A stretch of DNA of 33,118 nucleotides from Bacteroidales bacterium (GTDB lineage Bacteria; Bacteroidota; Bacteroidia; Bacteroidales; UBA12170): positions 1-33,118 of the forward strand of contig JAFGAK010000089.1 of NCBI GenBank assembly GCA_016933745.1. Reading direction: 5' to 3'. The number at the start of each line of letters is the position of its first letter. Position 1 is the first letter of the stretch. This document shows, one piece after another, positions 6,875-11,720 of this stretch. Position numbers and translations under genes: made by a program. The notes beneath the pieces were generated by a model. That model was given only the letters and a program-made list of their open reading frames with translations, searched no databases and had not been told where the DNA came from.

Positions 6875-7043
6875 GCTCTAAATTTAATTGAACTGCGAAT
6901 TTCTTAAAAAAAGCGCAATAATGAAAAATCTTATAATTTCTTGAGATAAATCTTGGAAAAAAGTCATTTGAATCGACAAATTCACGTTCAAATCAAACCA
7001 TTCAAGTTTTTTTTAGGCAAAATCGTGGAAACAAAAAAAAATA

Positions 7044-7074
7044 TTTGGTAAATCTAAAGATTGTTCTACATTTG
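7044..7074 (+). promoter_or_regulatory. Bacteroidetes-type promoter (-33 TTTG / 19 nt / -7 TACATTTG) for the aromatic operon leader
   Basis: TTTG at 7044-7047, 19-nt spacer, TACATTTG at 7067-7074, matching the known TTTG-N~19-TAnnTTTG consensus. Confidence 0.8.
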
Positions 7075-7081
7075 CAAGCGA

Positions 7082-7135
7082 ATGATGACAATTTATACAT
7101 ACAGCTATTTTTATTTTTGGTATTCGAAACCATAG
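7082..7135 (+). CDS. Aromatic leader peptide 1, MMTIYTYSYFYFWYSKP (attenuator)
   Basis: Direct translation; 5 Tyr, 2 Phe and 1 Trp in 17 codons; just downstream of the promoter; upstream of a terminator hairpin and the aromatic biosynthesis operon. Confidence 0.82.
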   Translation: MMTIYTYSYFYFWYSKP

Positions 7136-7136
7136 A

Positions 7137-7178
7137 GGGATTGCTTGTATATAACGATAAAGTACATAAAAGAGTCCC
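7137..7178 (+). promoter_or_regulatory. Candidate antiterminator hairpin 1
   Basis: GGGAUUGCUU (7137-7146, immediately after the leader 1 stop) can pair with AAGAGUCCC (7170-7178), the 5' arm of terminator 1, with one bulged G and one G-U pair. Confidence 0.65.
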
Positions 7179-7203
7179 GAAGTAATTTGGGACTCTTTTT
7201 TTT
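7168..7203 (+). terminator. Attenuator terminator 1
   Basis: AAAAGAGTCCCGAA-GTAA-TTTGGGACTCTTTT followed by T-run; 14-bp stem (one G-U) with a GNRA-type loop. Confidence 0.9.
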
Positions 7204-7214
7204 GAAATAATAGG

Positions 7215-7268
7215 ATGGCAAATAAATATTGGTTTTTTTATTGGACTTATTATTATCTGTTTTACTAG
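7215..7268 (+). CDS. Aromatic leader peptide 2, MANKYWFFYWTYYYLFY (attenuator)
   Basis: Direct translation; 6 Tyr, 3 Phe and 2 Trp in 17 codons; between terminators 1 and 2. Confidence 0.82.
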   Translation: MANKYWFFYWTYYYLFY

Positions 7269-7310
7269 CAGAATGGATGCATATTGGTTAAACCCTTGCT
7301 GAAGTTCTGT
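7268..7310 (+). promoter_or_regulatory. Candidate antiterminator hairpin 2
   Basis: GCAGAAU (7268-7274, overlapping or adjacent to the leader 2 stop) can pair with GUUCUGU (7304-7310), the 5' arm of terminator 2. Confidence 0.5.
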
Positions 7311-7330
7311 GTACGCAGAGCTTTTTTTTT
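7302..7330 (+). terminator. Attenuator terminator 2
   Basis: AAGTTCTG-tgtacg-CAGAGCTT (one G-U) followed by a run of T; directly upstream of the aminotransferase gene. Confidence 0.78.
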
Positions 7331-7338
7331 GAATTTAG

Positions 7339-8517
7339 ATGAATGATAAAGTGATGAAAATAGTTAAAATACAACCCGCAAATAGAGTTAAAGTAGTGGA
7401 TGAATATTATTTCTCCGTTAAGCTTGCCGAAATACGAAAATTAAATGCCGCCGGTGTTTCTATCATCAATTTGGGAATAGGAAATCCGGATTTAGCTCCT
7501 TCCGAAAACACCATAAACGGATTAAAAGAGGCGGTTGAAAATCCTTCTAATCATGGATATCAGAGTTATACAGGAATTCCTGAATTACGAGAAGCATTTG
7601 CGTCTTTTTATAAAGATCGCTATAAGGTGAGCCTAAATTCGGATAGCGAAATTTTGCCTCTCTTAGGTTCCAAAGAAGGAATCATGCATATTTCCCTCGC
7701 TTTTTTGAATGTTGGCGACGAAGTTTTAGTCCCAAATCCAGCTTATCCGGCATACAAAGCGGTTGCATCGCTCTGCGAAGCAAAATCGGTTAGCTACGAT
7801 TTAAGCGAAGAAAACGATTGGTTTCCTGATTTTGAGGCTCTAGAAAAAAGCGATCTATCCAAAGTAAAAATGATGTGGGTTAATTACCCAAATATGCCAA
7901 CAGGAAAGCTAGCAACCAAGCAATTATTTGAGCAGTTAATTGCCTTTGGCAAAAAACATGGAATCTTAATTGTAAATGATAATCCGTATAGTTTAATCAG
8001 TGCGGGAGAGCCAATTAGTATTTTATCTATTGATGGAGCAAAAGAAGTAGCTATTGAGCTCAACTCCTTGAGTAAATCACATAATATGGCCGGTTGGCGT
8101 GTTGGAATGATTGGAGGAAGTGCTGAATTTATTCATGCTATTTTAAGAGTAAAATCAAACATGGATTCTGGCATGTTTAAACCCATTCAATTAGCTGCAG
8201 CTGAGGCATTGAAAAACCCAAACGATTGGTATACAAGTCAGTTAAAAATTTATGCCGACCGCAAAGCGATTGGACAACAGATCCTTTCAGAGTTGGATTG
8301 TACCTTCGATGAAGATTCTTCCGGTATGTTTATTTGGGCTAAAATCCCAGAATCAGCTGAATCGTCTCAAGTTTTCAGCGAAAATATCTTGAAAAACAAA
8401 CATGTTTTTATCACTCCCGGATTTATTTTTGGATCACAAGGCGAACGCTTTATCCGTCTTTCACTAGCAAACAGCAACCAACTACTAAACGAAGCTTTAA
8501 ACCGTATAAAAAACTAA
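7339..8517 (+). CDS. Pyridoxal-phosphate-dependent class I/II aminotransferase (aromatic operon)
   Basis: INLGIGNPDLAPS, YQSYTGIPELREAFASFY, NYPNMPTGKLA, SLSKSHNMAGWRVGM; 392 aa. Confidence 0.93.
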   Translation: MNDKVMKIVKIQPANRVKVVDEYYFSVKLAEIRKLNAAGVSIINLGIGNPDLAPSENTINGLKEAVENPSNHGYQSYTGIPELREAFASFYKDRYKVSLNSDSEILPLLGSKEGIMHISLAFLNVGDEVLVPNPAYPAYKAVASLCEAKSVSYDLSEENDWFPDFEALEKSDLSKVKMMWVNYPNMPTGKLATKQLFEQLIAFGKKHGILIVNDNPYSLISAGEPISILSIDGAKEVAIELNSLSKSHNMAGWRVGMIGGSAEFIHAILRVKSNMDSGMFKPIQLAAAEALKNPNDWYTSQLKIYADRKAIGQQILSELDCTFDEDSSGMFIWAKIPESAESSQVFSENILKNKHVFITPGFIFGSQGERFIRLSLANSNQLLNEALNRIKN

Positions 8518-8520
8518 AAA

Positions 8521-9369
8521 ATGAAAGTATTTATTATTGGATTGGGAATGATTGGAGGTTCTTTGGCCAAAACCTTGCGCAACAGCAATTTTGCTGATGA
8601 AATTCTGGGTTTTGATAAAGCTACAGAGAATACAGCCTTTTGTCTCGAAAACAACTTAATTGATAGATCAGTCTCTATTGTGGAAGGAGCAAAAGAGGCT
8701 GATATCATACTATTAGCTACTCCCGTTGACAGCATTATGGAATTGATACCTCAATTATTGGATCAATTGGAAGAACAAGTTGTAATAGATATGGGATCGA
8801 CCAAGAAAGAGATTTCGAAGCTTGCAGCAACACATCCAAAAGGTTGCAATTTCGTAGCAGCTCATCCGATGGCAGGCATCGAAAATTCAGGGCCAACAGC
8901 CGCTTTGGAGCAGTTGTTTACAGATAAAGTAGCCATCATCTGTAATCCTGAAAATAACGCACGAATGCCATTAAATCTGGCTAAACTCTTCTTTAAATCG
9001 TTAAAAATGAAGCTGATATTTATGGATGCTGAAGAGCACGATCGAGATTTAGCCTATTTATCACATTTATCACATATTTTATCTTTTTCCTTGGCTTTAA
9101 CAGCTTATAATGTGGAAGATAAAGAAAGGAATATTTTCAATCTAGCAGGCGGTGGATTTGCCTCTACCGTTCGATTGGCTGGAAGCTCAGCTGCGATGTG
9201 GAACCCTGTTTTTCTTCAAAATAAAACCAATATGCTTGAAGCTCTCGAACTCTATATTTCAAACCTGAATTTGTTTAGAGAACATATCAAAAACGAAAAT
9301 AAAGAAGGATTAAATCAATTAATGAATAAATCGAACGCAATCTATAAAATCATAAATCAATCGATATGA
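8521..9369 (+). CDS. tyrA: Prephenate dehydrogenase
   Basis: MKVFIIGLGMIGGSLAKTLR Rossmann motif; AAHPMAGIENSGP; LSHILSFSLAL; operon context. Confidence 0.92.
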   Translation: MKVFIIGLGMIGGSLAKTLRNSNFADEILGFDKATENTAFCLENNLIDRSVSIVEGAKEADIILLATPVDSIMELIPQLLDQLEEQVVIDMGSTKKEISKLAATHPKGCNFVAAHPMAGIENSGPTAALEQLFTDKVAIICNPENNARMPLNLAKLFFKSLKMKLIFMDAEEHDRDLAYLSHLSHILSFSLALTAYNVEDKERNIFNLAGGGFASTVRLAGSSAAMWNPVFLQNKTNMLEALELYISNLNLFREHIKNENKEGLNQLMNKSNAIYKIINQSI

Positions 9370-10460
9370 AAACAAAACTAGACTTACTACCTGTTAACGA
9401 ATGGGGAATTAAATACCATGGCAGACCACTTTTAATGTCGGGGCCTTGCAGTGCAGAAACGGAAGAGCAAGTATTACAAACTGCACAAGCACTGGCTGAT
9501 AGCGGAGTATCTGTATTTAGAGCCGGAATTTGGAAACCACGCACTAGACCAAATAGTTTCGAAGGAGTGGGAGCCGAGGGATTAAAATGGTTGAGCAAAG
9601 TGAAGAAAGAAACCGGTTTAAAAGTAGCTACTGAAGTTGCAAATGCAAAACATACTTACGAGGCGCTCAAACACAATGTGGATGTGCTCTGGATTGGCGC
9701 AAGAACAACCGTGAATCCTTTTGCTGTTCAAGAAATTGCCGATGCATTGGAAGGAGTTGATATTCCTGTATTTATCAAAAATCCGATTAATCCGGATATT
9801 GAGTTATGGATTGGCGCATTGGAACGTATCAATAAAGCTGGAATCACCAAGCTTGGCGCGATTCATAGAGGATTTAGCAGTTATGGCGATGCTGCTTTTC
9901 GGAATGCACCAAATTGGCAAATTCCCATCGAACTTAAAAGACGTTTTCCTGAGCTAATCTTAGTCAATGATCCAAGTCATATTGGTGGTAAAAGAGAACT
10001 TTTAAGAGAAATTTCGCAAAAAGCAATGGATTTGGATTTTGATGGATTGATGATTGAAGTACATCCAAATCCGGATGAAGCTTGGAGCGATGCTAAGCAA
10101 CAAATTACTCCCGATGTATTCAAAGAATTAGTTGCTTCTTTAAAAATCAGAACCAAAGGAAGTGGACAGGAAGAGCAATCGCGTTTATGCGAATTGCGTA
10201 AAAAAATTGACCATTTCGACGATGAATTAATGGATATTATCGAAGCTAGAATGAAAGTAGCCGAAGAAATTGGGGAGTTCAAACGCGAAAATAATATTGT
10301 TGTTTTGCAAAATAGTCGTTGGAATGAAATCCTAGAGCAAAGCATTGCTGTTGGACAATCCAAAGGTCTCAGTTCAGATTTGATAACACGGATTTTCAAA
10401 GCCATTCACCAAGAAAGTATCAACAAACAAACTGAAATTATTAATCGCGTTTTAGTCTAA
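9366..10460 (+). CDS. Bifunctional 3-deoxy-7-phosphoheptulonate synthase / chorismate mutase
   Basis: N-terminal LLMSGPCSAETEEQV...FRAGIWKPRTRPNSFEGVG...IHRGFSS...DPSHIGGKRELL; C-terminal chorismate mutase LCELRKKIDHFDDELMDIIEARMKVAEEIGEFKRENN. Overlaps the tyrA stop by ATGA. Confidence 0.94.
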   Translation: MKTKLDLLPVNEWGIKYHGRPLLMSGPCSAETEEQVLQTAQALADSGVSVFRAGIWKPRTRPNSFEGVGAEGLKWLSKVKKETGLKVATEVANAKHTYEALKHNVDVLWIGARTTVNPFAVQEIADALEGVDIPVFIKNPINPDIELWIGALERINKAGITKLGAIHRGFSSYGDAAFRNAPNWQIPIELKRRFPELILVNDPSHIGGKRELLREISQKAMDLDFDGLMIEVHPNPDEAWSDAKQQITPDVFKELVASLKIRTKGSGQEEQSRLCELRKKIDHFDDELMDIIEARMKVAEEIGEFKRENNIVVLQNSRWNEILEQSIAVGQSKGLSSDLITRIFKAIHQESINKQTEIINRVLV

Positions 10461-10463
10461 ATC

Positions 10464-11720
10464 ATGATTGCAAAAGTTTATCCGGCAACAATCAATGGCT
10501 CCCTGCAAGCACCAGCTTCAAAAAGCATGCTTCAGCGAGCCATTGCGGCTGCATTTCTGAGTAAATCTAAAATTCAAATTTCAGGCTATACGCCAAGTGC
10601 AGATGCAGATGCTGCTTTGGCATTGATCGAAAAACTAGGGTCAAAAGTAAATAGAAATCAAGATCTCATCGAGATTAATTCGGGTGATTTTATTGACCCG
10701 CAACAGCAATTAACGATTGGCGAATCGGGCTTGGGAATTCGACTTTTTTCTCCAATTTTAGCGACTTTCAAAATCAAATTTCGAATTGAAGCCGAAGGAA
10801 CGCTAAGAAAAAGACCGCTTCGTTTGATCGAAGATGTTTTGAGTAAAAACGGCGTTTCGTGTTCTACGAATCAAGGATTTGCGCCAATTGAGATTATTGG
10901 CCCGCTCAAAGGTGGAACTATTTCGTTGGATGCAAGTGAAGGTTCTCAGTTTTTAAGTGGATTATTGATGGCATTGCCTATTAGCCATGTTGATAGCACC
11001 ATTCAGGTTCGTAACTTAAAAAGTAAGCCTTATATCGATATGACCATGCAGTTATTAACCGATTTTGGTGTAAACGTGCAGCATACAGAATACAAAACAT
11101 TTTCGATCAAAGGAAATCAAAACTATCGTGCTAAAAAGTACAAAGTGGAAGGCGATTGGAGTGGAGCAGCCTTTTTGTTAGTTGCAGGAGCAATTGCCGG
11201 AAAATTAACGCTTAAAAATATTCACCAAAATTCTTTGCAAGGCGATAAAAATTGTGTGAAAGTTTTGGAACAATCCGGTGCAATTGTTCTGCAAAAAGAA
11301 AAGGAAATTCGTGTGCAGAAACGAGTGTTGCATGCGTTTGAATACGACGCCACTGAAACGCCGGATTTATTTCCACCTTTAGCTGCATTGGCTGCATCTT
11401 GCGAAGGTGTGAGTATAATCTCAGGTGTAAACCGACTGGAACATAAAGAAAGTAATCGGGCAGAAGCAATTCGGAGTGTTTTAGAAAAGCTTGGTATCAA
11501 AGTGAAAATTGTGGACGATGAAATGCATATTCATGGCGGTAAAGTAAAAGGTGCTGTTGTTTCATCTTTTCACGATCATCGAATAGCAATGATGGCAGCA
11601 GTGATGGCGTTAAATTCAGAAAGCGAAATAGAAATTACGGACGCAGAAAGTATAAATAAATCCTATCCTGGATTTTACGAAGATCTTCAGAAATTAGGTG
11701 TTCCGATTCAGTTTTCTTAA
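10464..11720 (+). CDS. aroA: 3-phosphoshikimate 1-carboxyvinyltransferase (EPSP synthase)
   Basis: GSLQAPASKSMLQRAIAAA, GESGLGIRLFSPI, EGSQFLSGLLMALP, HDHRIAMMAAVMAL. Confidence 0.94.
   Translation: MIAKVYPATINGSLQAPASKSMLQRAIAAAFLSKSKIQISGYTPSADADAALALIEKLGSKVNRNQDLIEINSGDFIDPQQQLTIGESGLGIRLFSPILATFKIKFRIEAEGTLRKRPLRLIEDVLSKNGVSCSTNQGFAPIEIIGPLKGGTISLDASEGSQFLSGLLMALPISHVDSTIQVRNLKSKPYIDMTMQLLTDFGVNVQHTEYKTFSIKGNQNYRAKKYKVEGDWSGAAFLLVAGAIAGKLTLKNIHQNSLQGDKNCVKVLEQSGAIVLQKEKEIRVQKRVLHAFEYDATETPDLFPPLAALAASCEGVSIISGVNRLEHKESNRAEAIRSVLEKLGIKVKIVDDEMHIHGGKVKGAVVSSFHDHRIAMMAAVMALNSESEIEITDAESINKSYPGFYEDLQKLGVPIQFS

Follow-up and report, generated by a model that had tools for sequence, protein, structure and literature searches.

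The aromatic operon and its two leader modules

The stretch of Bacteroidales DNA analysed here (33,118 nt, hereafter the window) carries, according to a profile search, the adjoining genes aminotransferase-tyrA-DAHPS/CM-aroA. Directly 5' of them lie two modules in series, each consisting of a short ORF rich in aromatic codons, an antiterminator strand and an intrinsic terminator. The features are the following.

7042..7047, + strand: -33 promoter element (TATTTG), 19 nt 5' of the -7 box; consensus as given in PMC7366714
7067..7074, + strand: -7 promoter element TACATTTG (TAnnTTTG), ending 7 nt 5' of the leader 1 ATG
7082..7135, + strand: leader peptide 1, MMTIYTYSYFYFWYSKP, 8/17 aromatic (Y5 F2 W1); from sequence, conserved in seven loci of the genus
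7137..7146, + strand: antiterminator strand 1 (GGGATT-G-CTT), pairing with 7170-7178 when nascent RNA is folded with the ribosome stalled
7168-7199, T-run to 7203, + strand: intrinsic terminator 1, from its fold; the antiterminator pairs with its 5' arm, 7170-7178
7215..7268, + strand: leader peptide 2, MANKYWFFYWTYYYLFY, 11/17 aromatic (Y6 F3 W2); from sequence and conservation in the genus
7268..7274, + strand: antiterminator strand 2 (GCAGAAT), pairing with 7304-7310 in the stalled-ribosome fold
7301-7324, T-run to 7330, + strand: intrinsic terminator 2, from its fold; pairs kept in the genus
7339..8517, + strand: class I/II aminotransferase, which opens the operon (PF00155, E 7.3e-63)
8521..9369, + strand: prephenate dehydrogenase, tyrA (PF02153 and PF20463)
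9366..10460, + strand: DAHP synthase / chorismate mutase type II fusion (PF00793 and PF01817)
10464..11720, + strand: EPSP synthase, aroA (PF00275, E 8.7e-90)

Leader 1 starts at ATG 7082 (alternatively 7085) and ends with the TAG stop at 7133-7135; with a ribosome placed at this stop, terminator 1 folds at -20.9 kcal/mol. Antiterminator strand 2 begins 11 nt 3' of the YYY run of leader 2, as counted by eye. A preliminary description of this DNA had already given the two-module layout, and its coordinates, peptides, aromatic counts and placement of a strand directly after each stop were all correct. The neighbouring gene 5' of the leaders, an aspartyl protease (PF13650), is divergent, so that terminators 1 and 2 cannot be the ends of that gene. 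Within leader 1, the segment TGGT...ACCATAG (7118-7135) could fold into a small hairpin that joins the Trp codon to the codons at the end of the ORF. Its pairing is preserved across the genus, mostly by G-C/G-U exchange, and it is a possible candidate for a pause hairpin.

Conservation was inspected in the seven loci of the genus that have this operon, the window included (L001, L005, L006, L007, L008, L010 and L031). Both modules were present in 7/7. The aminotransferases of the other loci are 69-75% identical to that of the window, yet ORFs, terminators and strands were all preserved. Most substitutions in the leaders exchanged one of Tyr, Phe and Trp for another, and the YYYL of leader 2 was invariant. 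Pair cells were kept at 97% and 99% for terminators 1 and 2, and at 86% and 94% for antiterminators 1 and 2. Nearly all changes at paired positions were one-sided, mostly G-U exchanges; two-sided covariation, when sought within the genus, was found for one pair only. The preliminary description had expected short ORFs and hairpins to be conserved in close relatives, as they indeed are. It had also suggested looking in an alignment for conserved aromatic runs together with compensatory changes: the runs are conserved, and within the genus compensatory changes are nearly absent.

A recent tandem duplication was considered as the source of the window's pair and found unsupported, modules 1 and 2 being no more alike than shuffles in the seven loci. 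Either the doubling is therefore old, or the modules are of separate origin. Two further genomes of the genus, L023 and L026, have a different type of operon that starts with a prephenate dehydratase-like (pheA) gene, named by sequence and place rather than by profile search, and these also have two leaders.

Leader modules across Bacteroidota

Loci were drawn from three sets: 61 relatives, 80 named genome contigs and, across Bacteroidota, 398 genomes. Modules were detected as an aromatic leader followed by a terminator. The detector was designed after seeing the window, and the chance level was judged at identical settings on reverse strands and Markov shuffles of the orthologous loci. Among 184 distinct Bacteroidota loci with an orthologous aminotransferase, 142 had such a combination, for a total of 159 modules, while the detector found none on the reverse strands and none in the shuffles. 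The modules usually lie about 1 kb farther upstream, before a pheA-like gene. No module reached the threshold in the remaining 42 of the 184 loci (L013, L016, L134, L168 and L174, for instance). In Flectobacillus (L087, L093, L104), leaders with a YYYY run fall just below the threshold of the detector.

Two modules were present in 17 loci, with L027 as an eighteenth at a slightly lower threshold. On the aminotransferase tree, which was built quickly and has some branches that are only modestly supported, the double and single states require at least nine changes. Doubling of the predicted modules is recurrent in Bacteroidota, and the single form is the norm. Among culturable relatives, Odoribacter sp. 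Z80 (L102) has a double and Marinilabilia salmonicolor (L059) a single module. In three loci (L053, L056, L083) the two modules are clearly alike, which suggests that these pairs come from recent duplication.

Promoter elements were then used to ask whether the two modules share a transcript. A simple sigma-70 promoter scan was set aside as uninformative for Bacteroidota. The TAnnTTTG box was found within 90 nt of 92 of the 142 first or single leaders, versus 9 on the reverse strand. Within 60 nt 5' of the second leaders it occurred in 0/17 doubles, and no promoter was found between the modules; a separate promoter for module 2 was rejected on this count. The distance from first terminator to second leader was 2-34 nt in 16/17 doubles, the exception being L010, where leader 2, read at its longest, overlaps the first terminator. 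Given the missing boxes and the short spacing, one polymerase should meet both gates.

In the genus, the TTG of the -33 element is kept at the same position in most members, and the end of the -7 box is 7-8 nt from the leader 1 ATG in 7/7 loci. Were the box centred at -7, transcription would start about 2-6 nt before this ATG, a position which implies that the leader 1 mRNA is near-leaderless. Leaders this short are uncommon among Bacteroidota: leaderless transcripts amount to 5.5% in F. psychrophilum (PMC9723704), and 5' leaders shorter than 10 nt to 3.7% in B. thetaiotaomicron (PMC7366714). Outside the genus, some first leaders begin 4-7 nt after a TAnnTTTG box (L145, L170, L173, L178, L186, L190 and others), which suggests near-leaderless leader peptides in several lineages beyond that of the window.

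Other amino acid operons of the relatives have leaders of their own. Leaders with His runs, followed by terminators, precede hisG in 14/17 loci (L193-L208), and L194 has two such modules in series (911-977 and 1058-1142). Several loci with chorismate-binding (trpE-like) genes have Trp-run leaders; the set is mixed, as it also contains shorter genes that belong to other pathways. In three of them, two serial Trp-run leaders, each with a terminator, precede the trpE-like gene (L214:569-789, L216:592-811, L218:593-811). The his and trp doubles have the same residue in both leaders. Leaders rich in Ile, Leu and Val were found at 10/12 ilvD loci. The reverse-strand control of the his, trp and ilv loci gave one chance Trp match and one chance Ile/Leu/Val match. 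The window's own genome has a single module of this kind on contig C19 (L244:1260-1326), an Ile/Leu-rich leader, MKIAQITNLIINIINMLILRM, and a terminator just before ilvD.

Position and folding of the antiterminator strand

Helices between the region around the leader end and the 5' arm of the terminator were evaluated module by module, the best one being scored against shuffles with a cut-off of p<0.05. A significant helix was obtained for 114/159 modules. In these, the strand starts 10 nt past the last aromatic codon (IQR 8-11, sd 2.7, versus a null sd of 22.7), and 95% of the starts fall at 6-15 nt, versus 14% in the null. Its position relative to the stop codon is widely variable (sd 11.4), because the leader ORF ends 5' of the strand in some modules and continues across it in others. 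It is thus the aromatic run, and not the stop codon, that fixes where the predicted antiterminator strand lies. This is as expected if a stalled ribosome frees the strand and an advancing one covers it. Strands scored 17.9 against their own terminator arm and 12.2 against the arms of other modules. Taken singly, helices 1 and 2 of the window were not significant (p about 0.3 each), and the argument is therefore made from the relatives and the phylum set.

In folds of the nascent RNA that extended as far as the terminator loop, the arm was sequestered with a mean probability of 0.78 for a ribosome stalled in the aromatic run, and of 0.12 for one at the stop. A ribosome at the stop leaves a shorter length of RNA free to pair, and the comparison was therefore controlled with shuffled strands. 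With these, sequestration in the stalled state was 0.46, and 97/159 modules exceeded all ten of their shuffles, where 14 were expected. Without a ribosome, the arm was still mostly paired with the strand (0.59). A 1:2 protector hairpin was not found consistently, pairing of strand with leader reaching 0.5 or more in only 46/159 modules (in the window, 0.47 for module 1 and 0.08 for module 2). Since the protector is not general, transcription is predicted to continue past a leader that is left untranslated, which would differ from E. coli trp. With the full hairpin available, the terminator was the best fold of the window in every state tried, stalled included. Antitermination would therefore depend on the order of synthesis, as in other attenuators.

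Proposed mechanism and comparison with known systems

Two ribosome-mediated attenuators, placed in series on one mRNA, very probably control the aromatic operon. The preliminary description had proposed this arrangement, which gains support from the conserved aromatic runs and terminators, the fixed distance of the strand, and the lack of a promoter between the modules. From sequence we infer stalling, termination in the cell and a response to starvation, as follows. A ribosome would begin leader 1 almost at the 5' end of the mRNA. When charged Tyr, Phe and Trp tRNAs are plentiful, it would reach the stop and cover the strand past the aromatic codons; the terminator would then form and transcription would end. 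A ribosome stalled in the aromatic run would leave the strand free to sequester the 5' arm of the terminator, letting the polymerase pass. Past this first gate, the polymerase would reach module 2, where a second ribosome would make the same test ahead of the genes. With one signal acting at two gates, the basal level would be lower and the response steeper, and a multiplicative action of both modules is plausible.

Both leaders are rich in Tyr and Phe with some Trp, and they probably read the same signal. Alternatively, the modules could answer different signals (Trp and Tyr versus Tyr and Phe, for example), the operon integrating separate shortages in the way of Salmonella mgtCBR. The compositions of the leaders do differ somewhat: one Trp is kept in leader 1 in 7/7 loci of the genus, whereas leader 2 proper is without Trp in L010 and L031, and sensing of Trp would be sensible for an operon that supplies the common aromatic pathway (aroA, DAHPS). 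This reading is nevertheless unlikely, as Tyr and Phe dominate both leaders in nearly all doubles, and the his and trp doubles of relatives repeat one residue. Less probable still is that a single module is active and the other a decaying relic, left over from a duplication or from the lone attenuator of an ancestor. Single modules do prevail in the phylum and antiterminator 1 is the less well kept of the two in the genus (86%), but ORFs, terminators and strands of both modules persist in all seven loci despite the divergence of the aminotransferases.

The remaining explanations dispense with the leader peptides. The terminators could be acted on by another sensor, such as a T-box, a riboswitch or an RNA-binding protein, which also commonly places terminators before biosynthetic operons, and the aromatic ORFs would then be incidental. 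We consider this very improbable: neither the window nor any of 20 relatives matched an Rfam family at gathering score, the T-box covariance model was likewise unmatched, and the aromatic runs are conserved with the antiterminator strand anchored to them. Finally, short ORFs could arise by chance in an AT-rich leader where TTT and TAT codons are frequent, with terminators that merely insulate the operon, and the p of about 0.3 for a single-locus antiterminator would agree with this. Such an origin is contradicted by the 142/184 loci with modules, against 0 on reverse strands and shuffles, and by leaders conserved through substitutions mostly among Tyr, Phe and Trp, so that its probability is close to nil.

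Beyond serial attenuation at this operon, Bacteroidota as a whole may have a design of their own, a broader proposal for which we see the balance as even. It would consist of a three-part switch without protector, in which the advance of the ribosome alone permits termination, and of repeatedly stacked same-signal modules, some with near-leaderless first leaders, that set the gain of amino acid operons. The roughly 160 modules yield a quantitative rule, with the antiterminator starting some 10 nt beyond the final regulatory codon. Natural pairs of single and double loci allow measurement of the effect of stacking attenuators on one signal, and the tandem leaders offer a test of transcription-translation coupling in these bacteria.

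Bacteroidota, a dominant phylum in the gut as well as in many soils and waters, have an unusual sigma factor and rely little on Shine-Dalgarno sequences. To our knowledge, little is known of their amino acid regulation. A comparison of proteobacterial attenuators by Vitreschak and co-workers in 2004 reportedly included a few candidates from Bacteroidetes/Chlorobi. A 2010 survey stated that leader-peptide systems were known only in Proteobacteria and Actinobacteria before its own case from Firmicutes. Within the phylum, leader-peptide attenuation was suspected before amino acid operons of Flavobacterium psychrophilum (PMC9723704), and in Bacteroides thetaiotaomicron long 5' UTRs were reported to contain sORFs (PMC7366714). 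Both papers thus concern leader peptides before amino acid biosynthesis operons, as here; their main texts give the matter one sentence each, without tandem modules, geometry or a phylum-wide set. Same-signal tandem modules recurring in one phylum were not found in the open-licence papers searched. Leader-peptide attenuation is already known, and the same-signal tandem modules look new.

Two serial terminators, as in the window, are present in the rimP-leader of Gammaproteobacteria, but they are not described as a pair of leader-peptide modules (PMC2965389). Closer in layout is Salmonella mgtCBR, called a singular example of tandem attenuators, where two short serial ORFs on one leader mRNA each have their own attenuation (PMC3641672). 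Two serial ORFs on one transcript are likewise indicated in the window by the predicted ORFs, the terminators and the 0/17 promoter boxes. The ORFs of mgtCBR read ATP and proline and act additively (PMC3641672), whereas the two leaders of the window are rich in the same aromatic residues and are followed by separate terminators.

Attenuators of the trp, phe and his kind have a leader ORF rich in cognate codons and an intrinsic terminator between leader and gene, both of which are present in the window. Their third element, an antiterminator that depends on ribosome position and excludes the terminator, was found across the phylum set and was not significant in the window alone. The Phe_leader family (RF01859) scored below gathering in a 306-base search (26.4 of 55 bits, E 0.017) and was not matched in 20 relatives. 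Like pheA (pheL) of E. coli and Salmonella, the window has a leader rich in the product, an antiterminator/terminator switch and a terminator before aromatic genes. It differs from pheA in its mixed Tyr/Phe/Trp leaders, its two serial modules and the lack of a general 1:2 protector, as well as in a first leader that would be near-leaderless, in a phylum with little Shine-Dalgarno use. As the 1:2 protector belongs to the trp/his subtype and not to every attenuator, the system of the window works like ribosome-mediated attenuation of the phe/trp/his kind by mechanism, with a difference in design.
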